From assembly GCA_002709695.1 (NCBI GenBank), contig PAQF01000038.1:3487-52911 (forward strand): a stretch of DNA of 49,425 nt, given 5' to 3'. Position numbers and translations under genes: made by a program. Origin of the DNA: Candidatus Poribacteria bacterium. GTDB taxonomy: Bacteria; Poribacteria; WGA-4E; UBA9662. Shown here piece by piece: positions 22,773 through 32,263 of the stretch; position 1 is the first letter of the stretch; each line of letters opens with the position of its first letter. Below the pieces are notes generated by a model. That model saw nothing but the letters and a program-made list of their open reading frames with translations. It had not been told where the DNA came from and made no database searches.

Positions 22773-25703
22773 ATGATGCAAGCAATTTGCTATGCTATGT
22801 GTTTTGTTTATTTATACACTGATGTTAACCAGAATTATGAAATTGTAGGTCAGTCAGAACCCGAAGGTCACGATTACCAACGATGGGATGGCCCAGGAAT
22901 GGGCTCCATGGTTCTTTCAACAGTTGCTGGGGCACAGAACATCGCCGTGATTCAGAGTCCAGATGCCAGTCCCATTCAAGAAACCGCCTATCGGGAATTT
23001 TCACGCTTGACGGCATTAATAATGGGAAGAGCTCCTTTACAAGTTAAGGAAAATGTACTAGATCACGTTCGCGAACGAACAACGGACATCGTCTTAATAG
23101 GTGATTCAGCATTAAGTAATCAGATTATGCGAGATAACAATATTAGTCTCGATCCAATTACAGGTTCTGATGGATATCTTATTCGTTCTGTTGAGCTAGA
23201 TGGAAAAAATTATCTCCTGATCCTAGGAGAACGTGCTGTTGCCGCCTTATATGGTGTTTATGAATACTTTGAAAGGTTCTGCGACGTTGGTTATTTCCCC
23301 GAAGGGGATCGTATACTAAAGAAAGAAAAATTACCACTAGAAAAACTGGATATAGTGGATCGACCACGGTTTGCCCACAGAGTACAACACTTGGAAAGTC
23401 GTGCAGTCAACCTAGTCCAAAGTTCGTATTATTGGAATCTAGACCAATATCGACATGCCATTGATTGGATGGCGAAAAACAAATTCAACATGGAACTCCC
23501 GATGAACAAGCGGGGATTTGCTACCAATCCCTCAAATGAGGCTAACGATGGTGCTTTCCGCTATGTGGCTCTAGAACGATATGCTATGGAACGCGGTTTT
23601 CGTTACCTCCTTTATCATCCCTTTGATGTCTATCCAAATGGTGAGCATCCTGACATGCTTCTGCCAAAAGAATTCAACCGCCAAGAAGATCGAGAGAAAT
23701 ATGGGTTCCATGATTCTGTAGACTACTATTACAGTAGCGGGGAAGGTGGCGTCATGGAGGAGCGCATCAAAAACGCATTGGTTGTCCACGCCAAGGATCC
23801 AGAAGCAAAAGTATTTCAGGATATGTGGGATTTGACGGGATTATCTCCAACCGACTTTGCTAATAAACTTCCTGATTATGTAAGCGTTGGTGAATTAATG
23901 GTTTTTCGTGAACCAGCTCATATAGAAGCGAATTACTATGGTGGCAAGGAGTGGTTTATGGTCTGGATCCCATCGCTATTCTGGGGTGAGACCTTAGGTG
24001 GCGATCTAAAACGGATCGTAAGAATTATGAGGGAAGTCGCAGAAGACCCTAAAGCAAGAAAATGCGATGGATTTTGGCCCATGTCCGAAGGCCAATACTA
24101 TTGGAATCATCGACTCTATGGATTTGCTAGTGCACGCTTAGCATGGAACCCCGCTGATTGGACTTTAGACCGTCTGATTAAACGTTATGTGGAACTTCGT
24201 TACGACCTTCCATTCCGTGTACCTATGACTCGGGCGATGAACCAACTTGTGGAATGGATGGCTAACCATGACCCTGCGCGCCCAATGCATATGCAAGCAC
24301 CAAGAATGTATAGTTCTGTAGGTGGATGGGCTTATTCGGAAAATCTGGCAGATTATGCAGATAATCCTGATCTTCGCCATGTATTGGATACCGGTCTGAC
24401 TTTGGCTGATCAATTAGAGAATGATCCCTTTTTCGAGAGCGATCTTACTGAAATTGCACGCACATATTATACACAAATATGGGCATCTAATTTCTTGGAA
24501 CTTCGTCGAGCTGGGCGTGAAGCAGCTAATGCCGTCCGTGGTAACCGGTCTTACGTCACTCACGGTTTGGACAATGTGCTATTCGACGTTGATTTCGATC
24601 GGAAACAGGATGAGTCACCAAAATTCAAGCTTAAGGGACCGTGGCGCGTTGAAAATAATGTACTAACCAGTGATAATGATTCTAATCAATATCAACCCAA
24701 AAAGGAAGAAATTGCTGATGGAATCACGCGTTTAGAACCACAAGCACTTCATCCTCAACTGATCGTGGTTGATCCCAGCAGTAACAATTACGCATTATCT
24801 ATACAATTTCAGCCTAAGCAAGAACATGGAACAATTGTTTTCTTTGTTAGAGGAAACAATCCTCAAGAAGCAATCACAGTCAAATTTAATTATGGTGATG
24901 GACAAGTCGTTGTCCATGCCAATGGATTTGGTGATCACCCCCAAGAATTAAAGCAACAAAGTTTTGGCGTATACACTTTATCAGATGCGACATGGCATCA
25001 AGCAGTAATTCAGGCAACCGGTAGCTTGGTTAAACTTTATATAGACAATGAATTGATCGTTAATTTTGACCACCAAGAACGTAGAGGATACATACCCATA
25101 GAACTTCAGGAAAAAAAGTGGGATCAAGGCGGATTTGGAATTGAAGTTCATGGTCCTGGAATTGCTATTAAACAGCTAAAAGCATGGACGATAAATCCAG
25201 AACCTCCATCATTACTAGCCGTTACTATAGAGGATCAGGATAAGTTCGAAGAAGCCAGTCTTAGAGCGCAAAAACACGCTCGTCTTTGTGATACTATCTT
25301 TGAAGCCATGAACAATTTGTTAGCAACAAGACCCGAGTTTTCTGTAGAGAAATTCATTCGACCTGAATACAGAGCCATTGATCCAGAAGGCTGGCTAAGT
25401 TTTTCAACCAGTGTTCGTTCCAACGGTTTTCTTAGAGCCTATAATCGAACCGAGAGCTTCGAAGTAAATGAACGTGTCTATCGGCGAGAGGCACAAGCCT
25501 TTTCCAGCCGTGTGTTGGAACAAATTAAATCAAAGTCAACGGAACAAGTTGCCATTGGTGATCCCAAATTTTGTCAAGGCATTCATCAAATTTGGCGAGA
25601 ATGGGTTATAGATCCTGTCCCATCTCGTTCGAAGTTCAAAGGTTCAACCACAAAAGCTGTTCTACAAGGACTTGCTTCTATAGACAATTTAGATCAAAAT
25701 TAA
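22773..25703 (+). CDS. Very large putative glycoside hydrolase with inserted LamG-like sandwich domain
   Basis: A 976-residue protein. Residues about 45-185 resemble the alpha/beta domain that precedes the barrel in GH20, GH67 and GH89 enzymes (DIVLIGDSALSNQIM, AALYGVYEYFERF). From about 196 (RPRFAHRVQHLESRA, IDWMAKNKFNMELPMNK) a TIM-barrel-like region follows with GH89/GH67-like features, including LYGFASARLAWNPADW near 450. Residues about 603-808 look like a beta-sandwich of LamG or 3-keto-disaccharide hydrolase type (GPWRVENNVLTSDN, DNELIVNF). An alpha-helical tail ends the chain. AAAGGA precedes the paired ATG codons. The short hydrophobic N-terminus is not a convincing signal peptide, so the enzyme may be cytoplasmic. 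The family assignment is tentative and no catalytic acid was identified. Confidence 0.7.
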   Translation: MMQAICYAMCFVYLYTDVNQNYEIVGQSEPEGHDYQRWDGPGMGSMVLSTVAGAQNIAVIQSPDASPIQETAYREFSRLTALIMGRAPLQVKENVLDHVRERTTDIVLIGDSALSNQIMRDNNISLDPITGSDGYLIRSVELDGKNYLLILGERAVAALYGVYEYFERFCDVGYFPEGDRILKKEKLPLEKLDIVDRPRFAHRVQHLESRAVNLVQSSYYWNLDQYRHAIDWMAKNKFNMELPMNKRGFATNPSNEANDGAFRYVALERYAMERGFRYLLYHPFDVYPNGEHPDMLLPKEFNRQEDREKYGFHDSVDYYYSSGEGGVMEERIKNALVVHAKDPEAKVFQDMWDLTGLSPTDFANKLPDYVSVGELMVFREPAHIEANYYGGKEWFMVWIPSLFWGETLGGDLKRIVRIMREVAEDPKARKCDGFWPMSEGQYYWNHRLYGFASARLAWNPADWTLDRLIKRYVELRYDLPFRVPMTRAMNQLVEWMANHDPARPMHMQAPRMYSSVGGWAYSENLADYADNPDLRHVLDTGLTLADQLENDPFFESDLTEIARTYYTQIWASNFLELRRAGREAANAVRGNRSYVTHGLDNVLFDVDFDRKQDESPKFKLKGPWRVENNVLTSDNDSNQYQPKKEEIADGITRLEPQALHPQLIVVDPSSNNYALSIQFQPKQEHGTIVFFVRGNNPQEAITVKFNYGDGQVVVHANGFGDHPQELKQQSFGVYTLSDATWHQAVIQATGSLVKLYIDNELIVNFDHQERRGYIPIELQEKKWDQGGFGIEVHGPGIAIKQLKAWTINPEPPSLLAVTIEDQDKFEEASLRAQKHARLCDTIFEAMNNLLATRPEFSVEKFIRPEYRAIDPEGWLSFSTSVRSNGFLRAYNRTESFEVNERVYRREAQAFSSRVLEQIKSKSTEQVAIGDPKFCQGIHQIWREWVIDPVPSRSKFKGSTTKAVLQGLASIDNLDQN

Positions 25704-25707
25704 GTCC

Positions 25708-26436
25708 TCAATTCCGCTTGTATGGAATTCCTTCTAACAAACCAGCATCGTACATCTGGTCCCAATTTTCTAGGAAAAGAGAGTTCCATTCATCCGTTAG
25801 AGAAGAAACCATCATATCTTGGAAAACCGACCAAAAAATAATGATTCCGTCTGCACCATCCCTTAAAGCACGATAAGCGGTATCCACTGATCGTATCAAT
25901 GCAGCCGTAATATATGGACGGTTTTCCCAGTTCTCAAACATGGTACAGCATTCTCGAATCAATTTCGTAGGATCGCCATTAACTGCTAAGAAAGGATCGC
26001 AAAATGGCAGAACATGCGTGACACCAGCTCGTGCTACCGCTGCCGCTTGGGACAGAGTGAATACCGTAGTACAAAAGGTTTCGACCCCCTGTTTTTCAAG
26101 TTCCGAAAAAGCATCCAAAGCATATGTTGTCATCGGAATCTTCAGGATTATCCTATCGGAAAGTTTAGTAAAAACCTCGCCCACATCAAGAAGTTCTTGA
26201 GTTGAGTGGCCATCAATCTCGACTGCTACTTTTTTATCTGTTATGTCCAAGTAGCGCTTGATCACTTCAGTGATTTGACCATATTTTTTTGTCATTTCGT
26301 TCAGGACAACAGTATTGGTGACAATTCCAGCTATCCCTGATAACATCCACTGTTTTAGATCTTCTGGATCTCCAGCTAACCAAATAGCAGGTCCACTTAA
26401 TACTTGATGATGTTTGTTAACTGAAACTGTTGGCAT
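25708..26436 (-). CDS. Transaldolase/fructose-6-phosphate aldolase-like protein
   Basis: A 242-residue class I aldolase. SGIAGIVTNTVVLNEM corresponds to the TNP-type motif, VAVEID to the second strand, and the Schiff-base lysine is probably Lys99 in RIILKIPMTTYALDAF. The region GVTHVLPFCDPFLAVNGD is also family-like. It may cleave or form sugar phosphates or sugar-acid derivatives. The open frame reaches 26454, but the ATG at 26436 has a clean GGAG six bases upstream and is preferred. Its stop is four bases from the stop of the convergent glycosidase gene, and it is divergent from the Gfo/Idh operon. A role in processing the sugar released by that enzyme is inference only. Confidence 0.82.
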   Translation of the reverse strand: MPTVSVNKHHQVLSGPAIWLAGDPEDLKQWMLSGIAGIVTNTVVLNEMTKKYGQITEVIKRYLDITDKKVAVEIDGHSTQELLDVGEVFTKLSDRIILKIPMTTYALDAFSELEKQGVETFCTTVFTLSQAAAVARAGVTHVLPFCDPFLAVNGDPTKLIRECCTMFENWENRPYITAALIRSVDTAYRALRDGADGIIIFWSVFQDMMVSSLTDEWNSLFLENWDQMYDAGLLEGIPYKRN

Positions 26437-26568
26437 AATAAACTCCAAATTCATTTATGAATCAAAGACAAGCGAACGCTTGAAAAATTCACTTTTCTCT
26501 TGTTCTTGCTGTGTAAATTATTTTACCAGTTTTTGTGGTTTTAGCAACAGGGTGCTACTGTTTAAGAG

Positions 26569-26599
26569 TTGACACATATTGGATCTACTAGGATATAAT
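26569..26599 (+). promoter_or_regulatory. Candidate sigma-70-type promoter for the Gfo/Idh operon
   Basis: TTGACA at 26569-26574 and TATAAT at 26594-26599 are both perfect hexamers, but the spacer is 19 bp, slightly longer than ideal. The first gene starts at 26761, leaving a leader of about 150 nt with no riboswitch I can recognise. The surrounding 26437-26760 gap is otherwise empty. Confidence 0.45.
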
Positions 26600-26760: not shown

Positions 26761-27891
26761 ATGGCTTTAAAAGTTGGGATTGTCGGCCTAAGCGGCATTG
26801 GTAACAATCACGCAAATTGCTATACACAAGACGATCTGGCAGAATTAGTTGCTGTTTGTGATTTCGTGAAAGAAAGAGCAGACGATACTGCCGAAAAGTT
26901 TGGGGTAAAAGCTTATTATAACCTTCAAGATATGATAGATGGAGAACCAGACCTAGATATAGTTGATGTCAGTACTGGTGGAAACGAAAACGGCAGTTGG
27001 CATTATGAACCAACTATGCAAGCTTTGGATGCCGGCAAGCATGTTCTAGTGGAAAAGCCAATTTCTAACGATATTAACGAAGCGCGACAAATGGTAGCTA
27101 AGGCAGACGAACAAGGTGTTTATTTGGCTTGTAATCTGAACCACTATTTCACCCCACCTGCCGAACGAGCCATGCAATACATGGACGAAGGACACGTGGG
27201 AGAGATCACCTACTGCCTACACAAAATGGGGTTTGCTGGTGGTGAACAGACGTATGGGCCGCAAAACTCCCCACGTATCAAAGGCTTTCCCTACTTTCAC
27301 GTTAAGGCGTTTTTAGCTCATCCGTTCAGCGTAATGCGTCATTTTTGTGGCGACATTACACATGTGCAGGCCTTCATGAGTCAGCCCAGTTTCCGAAAAA
27401 AAGCGGGTGATGTGATGGTGTCAATCAATAGTATTCACGTCAAATTCCAAAGCGGAGCTATCGGTTATTTATTAAGTCAACGGGGTGATACCACCTTCGG
27501 TTTGGGTGGATGGTGGAGTGTGGAAGTTGGTGGTACACGTGGTACCTTCTGCATCGAAAACTGCATCGAAAAAGTGACTTTTTGGCCAGCACCAGGCACA
27601 GAAGGTGCCGCTGCACCAGAAAAACTAAGTGTAGGAGCATCTCCAGGTCCAGTAGTGCACGAATCGGGTCAATCCGATTTTGGAGCCACTTTCCCTTTGC
27701 GGATTCACGCCTTCTTGGAGGATGTCACAAACCAAGTACCGCTCAACCAAATTCGGGCTTCCGGTAGAGACGCTCTGGCCACGCTAGAATACACTTGGGC
27801 AGCAATAGAATCATATGAACAAGGCGGGATTTTGGTTCGCCCCCATCCATTACCAACCCTCAAAGGAAACCCCGTTACTCAAAATGGGTAG
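26761..27891 (+). CDS. Gfo/Idh/MocA family oxidoreductase
   Basis: A 376-residue NAD(P)-dependent sugar or inositol dehydrogenase. The Rossmann dinucleotide motif is GIVGLSGIGNNHANCY at the N-terminus. VLVEKPISNDINEA carries the catalytic Lys of the EKP motif near residue 98. The C-terminal alpha/beta domain follows, with FHVKAFLAHPFSVMRHFCGD in the region that normally bears the substrate-binding Asp/His. The ribosome binding site AAGGAAG is clear. It is the first of four plus-strand genes (dehydrogenase, isomerase, nucleotidyltransferase, MetE-like), with gaps of 64, 34 and 6 bp, so they probably form one operon. The substrate is unknown. Confidence 0.9.
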   Translation: MALKVGIVGLSGIGNNHANCYTQDDLAELVAVCDFVKERADDTAEKFGVKAYYNLQDMIDGEPDLDIVDVSTGGNENGSWHYEPTMQALDAGKHVLVEKPISNDINEARQMVAKADEQGVYLACNLNHYFTPPAERAMQYMDEGHVGEITYCLHKMGFAGGEQTYGPQNSPRIKGFPYFHVKAFLAHPFSVMRHFCGDITHVQAFMSQPSFRKKAGDVMVSINSIHVKFQSGAIGYLLSQRGDTTFGLGGWWSVEVGGTRGTFCIENCIEKVTFWPAPGTEGAAAPEKLSVGASPGPVVHESGQSDFGATFPLRIHAFLEDVTNQVPLNQIRASGRDALATLEYTWAAIESYEQGGILVRPHPLPTLKGNPVTQNG

Positions 27892-27955
27892 AAGATAAGA
27901 AATACCATCTTGGCTTCAATAATCATTAACATTTAAAATTACAAGGAGTTAGTTA

Positions 27956-28807
27956 GTGAAACTCGGTGCAAATTCAGTTTTGTTTGGCGGTTACGATATG
28001 GAAACCGCCTTTAAATACATCGCTATGGCGGGTTACGACGGTATCGAATTGGCGGCTATCGACGGTATGAGCCAACACTTGGTTCTCGACCGTTGGCAAG
28101 AATTAGTTGATGAAATCAAGCAATTGGCTAAAACCTACGAGCTTGATCTATTAGCTATGGAACAACCATCAAGAGATGCAGAAAAAATGGAGAAAGCCTT
28201 TCAAGCAGCGGCCGAAATCGGTATCCCAATTGTCAATTGTGGGCCTGGTGGTAAGAGCGACGACGAAGACGCTTGGCCAGAAATGATTGATTCATTGGGC
28301 AATTTGTCTGACAAAGCGGAGCAGTACGGAGTGACGCTCTGTGTCAAAGCGCACGTTGGAGGCAGCATCTACAATACACCAACTACGATTCGAGCAATGG
28401 AAGCCATTTCTTCACCTGCTTTTGGCATTGACATGGATCCGTCACATATCCATCGAGCTGGCGAAAATCCAGTCGAGGCCATCGCCGCGGTTGTCTCACG
28501 GGTCAAGCATGTACATATTCGTGACTGTGAAGGCAATTTCCAGACCCAAGCGTCGGAAGATGATGGCCAGTTCGATACTGTCGTAACTGGTCACAGGGCA
28601 CCAGGAAAACCCGAAATGCAGGCTAATGGCCGAGGCGGCATCGATTTGGTTGGTTACATCGCCGTTTTGCATCAGAACGGTTACACAGGTCCATTGAACT
28701 TAGAAGTTATCGGTGCCAAAGAGTATTCACTAGAACAGTGCTGTATCATTGCGGCTGAGTCGCGAGGACACATGCAAGCCAGCTTACAAAGCTGTGGTGC
28801 TAGGTAG
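27956..28807 (+). CDS. Sugar phosphate isomerase/epimerase (xylose isomerase-like TIM barrel)
   Basis: A 283-residue TIM-barrel protein starting at GTG with AAGGAG eight bases upstream. Metal-site candidates are the Asp/His of FGIDMDPSHIHRAG, the His of VKHVHIRDCEGN, and the Glu of LNLEVIG near the C-terminus. The family (AP_endonuc_2 fold) interconverts ketoses, inosose derivatives or hydroxypyruvate, and it commonly sits beside Gfo/Idh dehydrogenases, as here. A 3-keto-sugar or inosose step following the dehydrogenase is a reasonable inference, but no residue identifies the substrate. The C-terminal extension after LNLEVIG is short, with two adjacent Cys (QCCIIAAES). Confidence 0.88.
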   Translation: MKLGANSVLFGGYDMETAFKYIAMAGYDGIELAAIDGMSQHLVLDRWQELVDEIKQLAKTYELDLLAMEQPSRDAEKMEKAFQAAAEIGIPIVNCGPGGKSDDEDAWPEMIDSLGNLSDKAEQYGVTLCVKAHVGGSIYNTPTTIRAMEAISSPAFGIDMDPSHIHRAGENPVEAIAAVVSRVKHVHIRDCEGNFQTQASEDDGQFDTVVTGHRAPGKPEMQANGRGGIDLVGYIAVLHQNGYTGPLNLEVIGAKEYSLEQCCIIAAESRGHMQASLQSCGAR

Positions 28808-28841
28808 CCTCAAGTAGCTCTAACATAAACCTATTAATTCG

Positions 28842-29588
28842 ATGAAAGCTATTATTATTGGTGCAGGTCGTGGTCGACGGTTGATGCCACTAACAGAAGA
28901 TACGCCAAAATGCTTTGCGAAAATTGGAGAGAAACGTATACTCGACCTGATTATCGAAGCTTGGCTTACAGTGGGCATTGTGGACTTTGTATTTATCGGT
29001 GGATATCAAATCGAGAAAATACAGCAAGAATATCCGGATCTGAGATATTATTATAACCATGACTGGCAAAACAATAATATCCTAGCTTCCCTCTTTTGTG
29101 CAGAAGCTGAGATGGATTCACCATTTGTCTGCACCTATGCCGATATCATTTATCGTCCATGGGTGGCAGAGCAACTGGTGAAAACCAACCAGGATATTAG
29201 TTTAGTTCTTGATGTTGATTGGAGAAAGCGATACGCAATACGTACTATGCACCCTGAGGATGACGCTGAGAAGGTTCTAACAAAAGGCGACAAAATCACT
29301 GAAATAAGCCGTAAAATCTTGCCGGAAGAAGCCAATGGAGAGTATACCGGGGTAGCAATGTTTAGTCAAAAAGGGGCAAAAATCTTGCGTCAACATTATC
29401 ATCGTGCGTTGGATAAATATGACAATAAGCCCTTTCAGGGTGCTGTGTCATTACAAAAGGCATATTTAATTCAACTTTTCCAAGAGATGGTTCAAGAGGG
29501 TATAAAGATCTGCAAACTTGACGTCGCTGGTGGGTACTATGAAATTGACACCACGCAAGATTACGAAATTGCAAACAAAGAATGGTAA
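28842..29588 (+). CDS. Sugar/choline-phosphate nucleotidyltransferase (LicC/GlmU-like)
   Basis: A 248-residue NTP-transferase fold. The activation motif is GAGRGRRLMPLTEDTPKCF at residues 7-25, with the usual Arg and Lys. VCTYADIIYRPW near residue 95 supplies the metal-binding Asp. The segment YNHDWQNNNILASLFCAEAE resembles the NN-I-S-L region of LicC-type phosphocholine cytidylyltransferases more than that of hexose-1-phosphate enzymes. It would activate a phosphorylated compound as an NDP or CDP derivative. It lies in the four-gene operon, 34 bp after the isomerase and 6 bp before the MetE-like gene. No strong ribosome binding site is visible. Either assignment (aminoalkyl-phosphate or sugar phosphate) is open. 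Confidence 0.82.
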   Translation: MKAIIIGAGRGRRLMPLTEDTPKCFAKIGEKRILDLIIEAWLTVGIVDFVFIGGYQIEKIQQEYPDLRYYYNHDWQNNNILASLFCAEAEMDSPFVCTYADIIYRPWVAEQLVKTNQDISLVLDVDWRKRYAIRTMHPEDDAEKVLTKGDKITEISRKILPEEANGEYTGVAMFSQKGAKILRQHYHRALDKYDNKPFQGAVSLQKAYLIQLFQEMVQEGIKICKLDVAGGYYEIDTTQDYEIANKEW

Positions 29589-29594
29589 AAGAAA

Positions 29595-30683
29595 ATGGCA
29601 GGTTCCAATTCGCTGACCAAGGAAAACGGACAGCGATTATTTCCTACTAGTGTTGTTGGCAGTATGCCGAGACCCGATTTTGTACAGGACCTTTTTTTGT
29701 TGGGGAACAAAGAAAGCCCAAATAAATTGGATAAACATGATAATCTTGATGCTGCGGTACGCTACATCATTGCACTTCAGGAAGCCAGTGGGATTGACAT
29801 TATTTCGGACGGTGAATGGCGCCGCCGGTCTTATATTGGTATCATCGCAGATATAGCCAATGGTTTTGAACTGAGTATGCATAACGGCAAACATTGGACA
29901 ACAGTAGTAGATAAACTTGAGATTAAACAAGAGGGTGTAATCGCTGAAGAAGCTAAATTTTTGGTTCAGAACACAAATTGTAACACAAAAGTTTGCCTTC
30001 CTTCGCCATACCTTCTGGGACAGCGAATGTGGGATCAAGAAAAATCAAAAAACGCTTATCCCACCCGTGAATCCTTTATGTACGATCTAGTTCCCATACT
30101 GCGCAATGAACTGCGTTTATTAAAGGATGCTGGCGCAACTATTGCGCAGTTTGATGACCCGCATCTGTGTTTATTTGTCGATGAGAGTATTCGAGCCACT
30201 TATCAGGACCCAGAAGCTGAAATGGAACTATGCGTTGAATTACTCAACCAAATTGTCACAGACATTGAAGGAATCCATATCGCAATTCACCTATGCCGAA
30301 GAAATAAAGGACGAGAAGGATGGATAGGAGAGGGTGGTTACGAGCCCTTACTCCCTTATTTAGCAAATCTTGATGTGGATCAATACGTAATGGAATTTAC
30401 CATTCCTGTGGCGGGTGATGTCTCAATTCTGAAGGCCATTCCTGAAGATAAAATGGTCGGACTCGGTTGTGTTGACTGTCGTAGCGAACATATCGACACA
30501 CCGGAAGAAATAGTCGCCCGGGTTGAAAATGCACTTCGCTATCTGTCACCACAACAAATCGTATTGAACCCAGATTGTGGCTTTGCTCCGGGGAATGCCG
30601 CAGACATACCTCTAGATGAAGCCTATCAAAAGCTTAAGAACGAGGCTAAAGCCGCCGAGATATTACGTAACAAATACGCATGA
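29595..30683 (+). CDS. MetE C-terminal-like zinc methyltransferase
   Basis: A 362-residue barrel related to the catalytic half of cobalamin-independent methionine synthase. Zinc ligands can be read as His232 and Cys234 (IHLCRRN), Glu267 (VMEFTI) and Cys328 (LNPDCGFAPG), the same order as in MetE. VVGSMPRP and SDGEWRRRSY are also family signatures. The N-terminal MetE half is absent, as in the methionine synthase II/epoxyalkane:CoM-type branch, whose members transfer alkyl groups to thiols. It is the last gene of the four-gene operon and starts 6 bp after the nucleotidyltransferase. The thiol acceptor and methyl source are not evident, and it need not be a methionine synthase. Confidence 0.87.
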   Translation: MAGSNSLTKENGQRLFPTSVVGSMPRPDFVQDLFLLGNKESPNKLDKHDNLDAAVRYIIALQEASGIDIISDGEWRRRSYIGIIADIANGFELSMHNGKHWTTVVDKLEIKQEGVIAEEAKFLVQNTNCNTKVCLPSPYLLGQRMWDQEKSKNAYPTRESFMYDLVPILRNELRLLKDAGATIAQFDDPHLCLFVDESIRATYQDPEAEMELCVELLNQIVTDIEGIHIAIHLCRRNKGREGWIGEGGYEPLLPYLANLDVDQYVMEFTIPVAGDVSILKAIPEDKMVGLGCVDCRSEHIDTPEEIVARVENALRYLSPQQIVLNPDCGFAPGNAADIPLDEAYQKLKNEAKAAEILRNKYA

Positions 30684-30749: not shown

Positions 30750-32263
30750 TTAATTTGGAATTCGGCTTAGTCCTTTCCCCTCTATCACTCGTAAAAATTG
30801 GTCGGCATTAATTCCTTTGAAGTGTTCAATGAGTCCACTTGGCCAACGAATTTCCACAAGATCGACAACCGTTGAATGTCCCAATCCAAAGTGTAGACGC
30901 ATATCACTGTGGGAAGGATAGCTACCACCACTTTTGACTTCGCGTATCTGAGAGTGTTCTGATGTCACCACTTTGATACGAACACCAATACCATCCAAAT
31001 TACCCCGCATACCGACTACCTCAAAGACCAGCCAGTGATTCTGGCTATTCGTGTCGTTTCTCAAGAGATTCAGCGACTGAGAGGAATTGGTGACTAAAAT
31101 ATCGATATCCCCATCATTGTCATAATCTCCCAAGGCTGCTCCACGGCTTACCATTTCCAGATCTAGCCCTGAACCAGATTGACTTGAAACACCCTTGAAA
31201 CCCTTGTCCTTACTGTTTTTGAACAGTTGGTTGGGTTGATCATAGGTCATACTTGGCCGAACTAGTCGAATATTATCATCAATGTGCCCGTTAACAATAA
31301 ACAGGTCTAAATAGCCGTCGTTATCTAAGTCCACGAATTCGGCTCCCCTTCACTCAAATAAAGCGTACCGTTAGTAACAAGTATAGCGCGCTGATGCGAA
31401 AAAGGATCCGTCTCATCTTTTTTCCGCTGCAGAAACGTCTTCATTTCTGTTTCTGCTTCTGCTTCCTTCCCTTGCTTAAAGTATAGCAGTGCCAATTGGT
31501 AATGAGCATAGGGTAGCGATGGATATATTTGGATAGCTGAAACAAATGCCTCTTCCGCTATTTCCCATTTCTTCTTGCGGATTGATACAAGACCTAACTG
31601 GAAATGAGTTTGGGCCAAAGGTTGTATTTGAATAGATCGGAGACAGTACTTTTCTGCTTTATCCAATAATCCTTGCTCCAACGAAATTCGACTTAGATAG
31701 TAAGATATCTCAGCCTTTGATATTGCTGTTATGTTACCAATCCGATCCCAGCTCTCGTTTTTGACATGGGATAGTGGCAGAAAATGTTGAAGTGGGTTTT
31801 CCGTTGGTTTAATTAGATGTACCGATCGTAAAAAGGCTTCTTCTGCTTTTTTATATTGGTGCAATTGAAAGTAAGACAGTCCAAGTTGGGTATAGATATC
31901 GCTGTAATTTGGGAACCGACGGATTAATTCTTGGAATATCGCAATAGATTTCTCGTACTTTTTTTGTAATTGATAAGTTCGGCCGAGCCAATAATTCCCT
32001 TCTTTGGATTCCAAATCTAATTTGATCACCTGACGGAATATGAGATTCGCTTCTTCCAAAATATCATGAAAAAAATAAGCTAAGCCCAGAGAAAGCCTTG
32101 CCTCGATAGAATCAGGATCCTCCAATATAACCTACTGATATCTTGTTATCGTTTGGACAATATCATTTTCTTTCTCGTTATCCTCTGCTAGTAAAAATGA
32201 ACAAAGATATAGGCTTAAAAATGAAATAAGGATCCAAACCATTATTGATTGCATAGGTATCAT
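30750..32263 (-). pseudogene. Broken secreted TPR / FG-GAP / ASPIC-UnbV protein
   Basis: Three fragments read as one damaged gene. From ATG 32263 there is a 43-residue start with a clear signal peptide (VWILISFLSLYLCSFLLAED). It is stopped by an in-frame TAG at 32132-32134. The same frame continues through about 270 residues of tetratricopeptide repeats down to EGEPNSW at 31331, then shifts. The other frame carries LDNDGYLDLFIVNGH, one more VCBS repeat (DYDNDGDIDILV) and a complete ASPIC/UnbV tail to 30750. A one-base change at about 31330-31334 would rejoin the frames. The propeller part is only about 195 residues, so earlier VCBS repeats also seem deleted. Intact relatives are large secreted or surface proteins. 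Confidence 0.8.

Follow-up and report, generated by a model that had tools for sequence, protein, structure and literature searches.

A nucleotidyltransferase gene paired with a MetE-like gene in Poribacteria and many other phyla: a probable two-step alkyl-transfer module

Four consecutive genes in a poribacterial genome

We examined a 49,425-nucleotide stretch of DNA (the window) from a Candidatus Poribacteria bacterium (assembly GCA_002709695.1, contig PAQF01000038.1, positions 3,487 to 52,911, forward strand), whose genome of 5.2 Mb is 96% complete. Four consecutive genes, g1 to g4, lie at 26761-30683 of the window. The last two, a nucleotidyltransferase gene (g3) and a MetE-like gene (g4), form the pair that is the main subject of this report (module B); g1 and g2 are referred to as module A. 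Genomes are cited by G numbers (the window genome is G000) and loci by L numbers. The genes and the promoter-like site before them are the following (aa, amino acids; CTP, cytidine triphosphate):

26761-27891, + strand: g1 (module A), Gfo/Idh/MocA dehydrogenase, 376 aa; PF01408 GFO_IDH_MocA, E 3.8e-27, 95.8 bits against a cut-off of 24
27956-28807, + strand: g2 (module A), xylose-isomerase-like TIM barrel, 283 aa, GTG start; PF01261 AP_endonuc_2, E 1.3e-28
28842-29588, + strand: g3 (module B), nucleotidyltransferase of the LicC/Cj1416 branch, predicted to be CTP-dependent, 248 aa; PF12804/PF00483 (NTP_transf_3/NTP_transferase)
29595-30683, + strand: g4 (module B), predicted core MetE-like zinc alkyltransferase, 362 aa; PF01717 Meth_synt_2, E 3.8e-26
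26569-26599, + strand: promoter-like site TTGACA-N19-TATAAT 5' of g1, with exact hexamers at 26569-26574 and 26594-26599

The original prediction, made from the window alone, described these four open reading frames (ORFs) as one operon; its gene families agree with the Pfam matches, which pass the cut-offs for all four products, and its intergenic gaps of 64, 34 and 6 nucleotides (nt) are exact. None of the four products reached an NCBIfam cut-off. The promoter that it placed before g1 has exact hexamers, but their 19-nt spacer means that a scan with spacers of 16-18 nt omits the pair. With spacers of 15-20 nt, one such match was found in the window and at least one in 12 of 100 shuffles of it; in G001, a genome of the same genus, both hexamers are lost (the -35 has a 4-nt insertion and the -10 is altered). 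Because such matches arise in shuffled sequence and the hexamers are not conserved, the site is weak evidence for a promoter.

The g3-g4 pair across bacterial phyla

We scanned the g3 alignment against one genome per species (84,980 species) and obtained 184 relatives; the 80 best-scoring ones were taken on as loci. These loci were found by g3 alone, and g4, located by tblastn, was counted as adjacent when it lay downstream within 1.5 kb on the same strand. By this measure g4 directly follows g3 in 71 of the 80 loci, at a median distance of -1 nt (range -27 to 423), and an ORF-based count gave 66 adjacent pairs among 76 loci with a recognised g3; the ORF filter left L143, L156, L183 and L198 without a g3 ORF, and these were recovered by tblastn. 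The nine loci without an adjacent g4 comprise six poribacterial ones, where g4 lies elsewhere in the genome, and L139 (with 1.7 kb of contig remaining), L151 and L167. According to the record titles, the best 80 loci come from Planctomycetota, Verrucomicrobiota, Lentisphaerae, Gemmatimonadota, Latescibacterota, Hydrogenedentota, Chloroflexi, Acidobacteria, Abditibacteriales, Rokubacteria, proteobacteria and Poribacteria; one of the planctomycetes with the pair is the cultured Aeoliella straminimaris (L135). The association of a nucleotidyltransferase with a MetE-like protein, first seen at a single locus, is real and far wider than that locus.

Within the Poribacteria, g3 orthologues of at least 50% identity were present in 12 of 58 genomes (in G021 the gene is split over two contigs), and all 12 also carried a g4 orthologue (52-100% identity). 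The two genes are not adjacent in seven of these 12, all of family f4: in six they are far apart or on other contigs, and in G021 they are about 3.6 kb apart on one contig. The other three genes (g1, g2 and g4) were searched in 19 of the 58 genomes; in the seven searched Poribacteria without g3, the best g4 (MetE-like) match did not exceed 42% identity. Distance matrices of g3 and g4 were correlated over 44 loci (r 0.70; maximum of 1000 permutations 0.32), as would also be expected from shared descent alone. That g3 and g4 act as a functional unit seems to us almost certain. We did not find the pairing described in the open-licence papers searched, and the pair is probably an undescribed two-step alkyl-transfer module.

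The nucleotidyltransferase g3

The AlphaFold2 model of g3 (predicted local distance difference test, pLDDT, 95.1) was closest, among solved folds compared with VIA-align, to PntC (6pd2; Z 28.6, root-mean-square deviation (rmsd) 1.9, 226 residues aligned), followed by LicC (1jyl; Z 27.2, rmsd 1.9, 221 aligned), which Foldseek ranks first, and inositol-1-phosphate cytidylyltransferase (Z 25.4, rmsd 2.1, 222 aligned). No nearer fold family was present for g3 or g4 among the structure matches listed. In an alignment of 55 sequences (8 poribacterial and 47 from the 80 loci), R13, P22, K23, D101, E234 and D236 were invariant. The fold (Z 25-29), the metal acids and the loop GXG(T/S)RX4-8PK, whose position 4 is often other than T or S, are those of the LicC-like superfamily, and on this sequence and model evidence g3 is very likely a CTP-dependent nucleotidyltransferase.

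The substrate is another matter. In the account of Rice et al. 2019 (PMC6697681), LicC D105/D192 and PntC E104/E196 sit beside the substrate amine. At the column of LicC D105 and PntC E104, g3 has Tyr99, invariant in all 55 sequences, so that the acidic residue of LicC proper is missing; this placement comes from the PntC alignment and a wider alignment, the HMMER alignment to LicC being shifted by one residue there. Since the amine-side acid is an invariant Tyr in g3, phosphocholine, which the likeness to LicC would suggest, is weakened as a substrate, and with it the choline-like compound of the original prediction.

A second feature of g3 is a substrate-loop signature, W127-Y/W131-R134-D141-E143. 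It was found in 5 of 11 relatives compared, all five from Cj1416-like cassettes (Vibrio, Azospirillum, a deltaproteobacterium, Roseovarius and Agrobacterium vitis), and was absent in the other six, which lie in phosphonate, CDP-alcohol, sugar-transport, aminotransferase-fusion or unannotated contexts. Among the five, W127 is present in four, and W131 (Y in g3), R134, D141 and E143 in all; the loop reads W-x3-(Y/W)-x2-R-x2/3-P-x2-D-x-E, apart from the missing W in Agrobacterium and the missing P in Roseovarius. Tyr99 is common to all five. They are 27-29% identical to g3 (L216 stands outside that alignment) and form its sister group in the tree (support 89/83). All five lie near a gene of the phosphoenolpyruvate (PEP)-utilising/pyruvate-phosphate-dikinase type and four of them adjoin a gamma-glutamyl-GABA-hydrolase-family gene, which is the neighbourhood of Cj1416-1418. 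These enzymes, together with Cj1415, are reported to convert glutamine, ATP and CTP to CDP-phosphoramidate 3'-phosphate (PMC11800397).

Because g3 shares residues with the Cj1416-like relatives, its substrate may be an amino-acid-like phosphate or phosphoramidate rather than phosphocholine. An (amino-)phosphonate may also serve, since a relative from a phosphonate locus (L208) has Tyr99 as well. Neither a glutamine kinase nor a gamma-glutamyl hydrolase was noted among the recurrent neighbours of the g3-g4 pair, although no search aimed at these two genes was made.

On plasmids, where g3 and g4 relatives were searched separately, g3 relatives gave 96 records, of which 11 were examined. Four of these loci (L206, L210, L211 and L216) are apparent phosphoramidate-type cassettes outside Campylobacter, in Vibrio alfacsensis, a deltaproteobacterium, Roseovarius and Agrobacterium vitis: they combine a PEP-utilising kinase and a cytidylyltransferase with either a gamma-glutamyl hydrolase or, at its position, an unannotated ORF.

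The MetE-like protein g4

The g4 model (pLDDT 88.3) was nearest to MesD (3rpd; Z 36.7, rmsd 2.5, 321 aligned) and then to the catalytic domain of MetE (1xdj; Z 35.4, rmsd 2.5, 331 aligned) in VIA-align, and Foldseek ranks full MetE first. The zinc ligands given in Price et al. 2021 (PMC7857596) are H641, C643, E665 and C726, and the homocysteine ligands S433, E484 and D599. In g4 the zinc residues H232, C234, E267 and C328 and the homocysteine residues S23, E74 and D187 were invariant in all 54 sequences aligned (9 poribacterial and 45 from the 80 loci); these include a poribacterial paralogue that is not beside g3 (L064), and L127 was left out since a second MetE-like gene had been picked there.

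The window g4 scored below the cut-off of every NCBIfam methionine-synthase model that it matched: PRK04326 (166 bits against 406), PRK06520 (142/313), PRK09121 (108/392), PRK00957 (93/258), PRK06233 (85/576) and PRK01207 (53/399). It reached 55 bits against a cut-off of 930 with the full-MetE model TIGR01371 and, at 362 aa, has no N-terminal domain. Bit scores refer to the window g4 only, the other 53 members being known by their E-values. Because g4 falls below all these cut-offs and yet has invariant ligand residues, it seems to represent a separate family of core methionine synthases. Judging from the conserved sites, it probably binds zinc and homocysteine; methyl transfer to a thiol, the activity originally proposed, is consistent with them.

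Neighbours of the pair

A major facilitator superfamily (MFS) transporter of the organophosphate-antiporter (OPA) family was found in 19 g3 loci, directly upstream of g3 in 18 of them; the two members scanned had PgtP, UhpC and GlpT as best NCBIfam matches, all below cut-off. Since this transporter accompanies the pair there, a phosphorylated substrate may be imported in those loci. In five loci the gene directly upstream of g3 belongs to cluster c12, whose scanned member is nucleoside-hydrolase-like, and in G003 and G006 an inositol-phosphate synthase gene lies 480-690 nt upstream of g3. None of these three is universal among the pair loci. The synthase is a weak hint at the cyclitol-like compound of the original prediction, and we rejected inositol as the substrate, the gene being upstream of g3 in no more than two species, both from a single genus.

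In the family f4 Poribacteria of loci L103-L107, g4 is flanked by genes for a macro-domain protein and an MFS transporter and adjoins hydantoinase-A-like and CocE/NonD-like genes; an MFS member was scanned, and the others are named by eye.

Module A and its joining to module B

Orthologues of g1 (75-96% identity) were present in nine other poribacterial genomes, two of them with one stop within the aligned range, and G009 has in addition to these nine a contig-edge fragment; those of g2 (75-92% identity) were present in ten. Of the 11 genomes with both genes, nine, the window genome among them, have them side by side; in G005 they are on different contigs, and in G009 the arrangement is broken at contig ends.

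The order g1-g2-g3-g4, in the same orientation, was found in two species of a single genus, G000 and G001, and in no other genome searched; the gaps in G001 are 119, 10 and 7 nt. In G002, G003 and G006 the g1-g2 pair is separate from g3-g4, some 111 kb away or on another contig, and G004, G007, G040 and G045 have module A but not module B. Among the 80 g3 loci, g2 was found in one, L120, which is G001 (g1 there 96% identical by tblastn); weak g1 matches (27-33% identity), at least 2 kb from g3, occur in seven further loci. Because the four-gene order is confined to one genus among the genomes and loci searched, and the pairs are separate in others, the arrangement is most readily explained by two modules having been joined recently, at the level of this genus. 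Module A is best explained as an independent poribacterial dehydrogenase/isomerase pair beside module B. IolG/IolE-like pairs belong to the same two families, but neither g1 nor g2 reaches the NCBIfam cut-offs.

In g2, a Lys in the motif LCVKAHVG, conserved in all ten aligned orthologues, stands at what we take to be the usual metal-site Glu of this TIM-barrel family, and an insertion of 18-19 aa is limited to three of these rows, of the window's family f1.

Around the four genes we noted a small transaldolase/fructose-6-phosphate-aldolase-like gene (25708-26454, - strand), divergent from g1 and kept in G001, and a gene for a large protein (22773-25703, + strand) that has a GH67 N-terminal match and, below threshold, one to 3-keto-disaccharide hydrolase; this gene is kept in G001 too, where it is split over several ORFs. 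Downstream, on the - strand, lie FG-GAP/VCBS-like and TPR-like ORFs, named by eye (30750-31334 and 31325-32125; 194 and 266 aa); these measure 562 and 640 aa in G001, which suggests frameshift or decay in the window.

Methionine synthesis in pair-bearing genomes

No full-length MetE was detected in the 58 poribacterial genomes at E<=1e-100. Strong MetH matches (E<1e-100) were found in 4 of the 12 pair-bearing Poribacteria versus 40 of the other 46 (41 when a contig-edge fragment in G050 is counted; Fisher p 0.0002-0.0005). Full-length MetH is missing in 8 of the 12, and also in G005 and G016, which have no g3. The pattern fits a replacement of MetH by g4, but it follows family lines, and the families account for most of it. 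A strong match to methylenetetrahydrofolate reductase (MTHFR) of about 630 aa is missing in 8 of the 58 genomes, six of them pair-bearing, where only a divergent one is kept. The window genome at first seemed to have no MetF; its weak match proved to be an MTHFR that carries a DUF5981 tail and is encoded next to RACo, a corrinoid reactivator.

Seven family f4 genomes (G008, G010, G012, G014, G016, G018 and G019) carry a separate reading frame of 280-292 aa of the MetH activation-domain family; in G012 (L204) it has no MetH beside it, and in G019 it adjoins full-length MetH on the same contig.

A proposed mechanism and its alternatives

Our tentative proposal is that g3 makes a CDP-activated compound from which g4 moves an alkyl group, probably methyl, to homocysteine. 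The two enzyme classes have good support; how the steps are linked, what the substrate and the alkyl group are and which way the reaction runs are what we infer. In a first step, g3 would use CTP to place cytidine monophosphate on a small phosphorylated compound, which may resemble an amino acid, giving CDP-R and pyrophosphate. Homocysteine would then enter the amino-acid pocket of g4 (S23, E74, D187) and its sulphur would become a thiolate on the zinc (H232, C234, E267, C328), and this thiolate would take the alkyl group, most likely methyl, from CDP-R or a derivative to yield methionine or another S-alkyl-homocysteine. In this scheme g3 would be a dedicated partner of g4, as MesX is of MesD, a folate-independent core methionine synthase. 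In a bolder version, which we consider unlikely, the pair would be a fifth route of methionine-type synthesis independent of folate: g3 would turn a phosphate ester or phosphoramidate into a CDP derivative, so that its phosphate leaves readily, and the zinc-bound homocysteine thiolate would take up the alkyl group, with CTP rather than folate, cobalamin or S-adenosylmethionine (SAM) driving thioether formation.

Several observations weigh against the CDP-coupled transfer. Support for the grouping of g3 with the Cj1416-like relatives is moderate, and L208, which lies beside aepX and aepY, is 32% identical to g3, slightly more than those relatives are, and has Tyr99 without the loop. R26, R77 and R235 of g4 also occur in the Listeria protein 1ypx and hence are no proof of a phosphorylated donor. 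No Rfam match, and hence no SAM or B12 riboswitch, was found in 28 sources (the window and 27 loci). Among 50 of the 71 pair loci examined for MetH and RACo (49 labelled outside Poribacteria; L133 labelled Poribacteria), a MetH-domain match was present in 38 genomes, 30 of them at E<1e-80. Because of these matches we rejected the idea that the pair is, as a rule, the sole methionine synthase; in Poribacteria the family lines explain most of the pattern that had suggested it. Finally, the window genome, which has no MetH match, holds a cluster of RACo, MTHFR (DUF5981) and a pterin-binding methyltransferase (L200, G000:C7:36000-40000) that could supply methyl-corrinoid instead.

This cluster leads to the alternative that survives best, though we find it rather doubtful: g4 would be a corrinoid-protein-dependent core methionine synthase with a donor like that of MesA/MesB, and the CDP-compound of g3 would serve envelope decoration and be methylated via the methionine/SAM that g4 provides. 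The bacterial core-MetE reported in PMC7005905 uses methylcobalamin, which counts for it. Of the 18 Poribacteria searched for RACo, 17 gave a match, as did 27 of the 50 pair-bearing genomes; among these 50 it is enriched where MetH is absent (10 of 12 versus 17 of 38; Fisher p 0.024). These counts keep a methyl-corrinoid donor alive. However, the other 23 of the 50 gave no RACo match, RACo also occurs in the g3-less Poribacteria G004, G005, G007, G009, G016 and G045, and no recurrent methyltransferase or other transferase neighbour was noted, none having been searched for directly.

We judge it unlikely that g4 is a small MetE of the usual folate-dependent or of a broad-specificity type (like YxjG, YxjH or 1ypx) with g3 in an unrelated pathway and co-regulation as the only tie. 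The aligned Trp of the MetE catalytic domain that g4 keeps, its near end-to-end alignment with 1ypx and the many small MetE-like paralogues in the same genomes all agree with such a role. Co-regulation alone, however, hardly explains 71 adjacent pairs in 80 loci across phyla together with co-occurrence where the genes are separated, and the missing strong MTHFR in six pair-bearing Poribacteria also speaks against it.

The single four-step pathway of the original prediction, from sugar oxidation to activated alkyl transfer, is very improbable: order and orientation are identical in two species of one genus, but the pairs are unlinked in three genomes, module A stands alone in four, and only L120 joins both modules among the 80 loci.

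Relation to known systems and significance

Both proteins of module B come from known superfamilies, and what is new is their pairing. With LicC and PntC, g3 shares the fold, the GXGxR...PK loop and the metal acids D101, E234 and D236; it differs in Tyr99, in the extra loop W-x3-Y-x2-R-x2-HP-x2-D-x-EK and in an identity of only about 20%. The Cj1416-type phosphoglutamine cytidylyltransferase of methyl-phosphoramidate cassettes, compared here through cassette relatives rather than C. jejuni Cj1416 itself, is closer, with Tyr99, the substrate-loop signature and a sister position; it is accompanied by a PEP-utilising kinase and a gamma-glutamyl hydrolase, whereas the partner of g3 is MetE-like. 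CpgD, a CTP:phosphoglycerate cytidylyltransferase reported to act on 2-phosphoglycerate (PMC13228409), is of a similar kind, with a small acidic phosphate as substrate, and is likened to g3 by description only.

On the other side of the pair, MesA, MesB, MesC and MesD have, as g4 does, a single catalytic barrel with the zinc and homocysteine residues. MesD also has a dedicated partner gene, DUF1852/MesX, where g4 has the nucleotidyltransferase; a search for MesX (PF08908) gave no match in the 58 poribacterial genomes, but its control also gave none anywhere. Unlike the Mes proteins, g4 stays below the NCBIfam methionine-synthase cut-offs, and the pair occurs in genomes with and without MetH. 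MetE shares the fold of its catalytic domain and the metal and homocysteine site with g4, which lacks the N-terminal domain.

The pair is a two-gene unit, spread across many phyla, in which a protein with the catalytic residues of methionine synthase has a nucleotidyltransferase as its partner. If the two are chemically coupled, one of the central alkyl transfers of metabolism would gain a route driven by CTP, and the coupling could explain how some Poribacteria make methionine without full-length MetE, MetH or a typical MetF.

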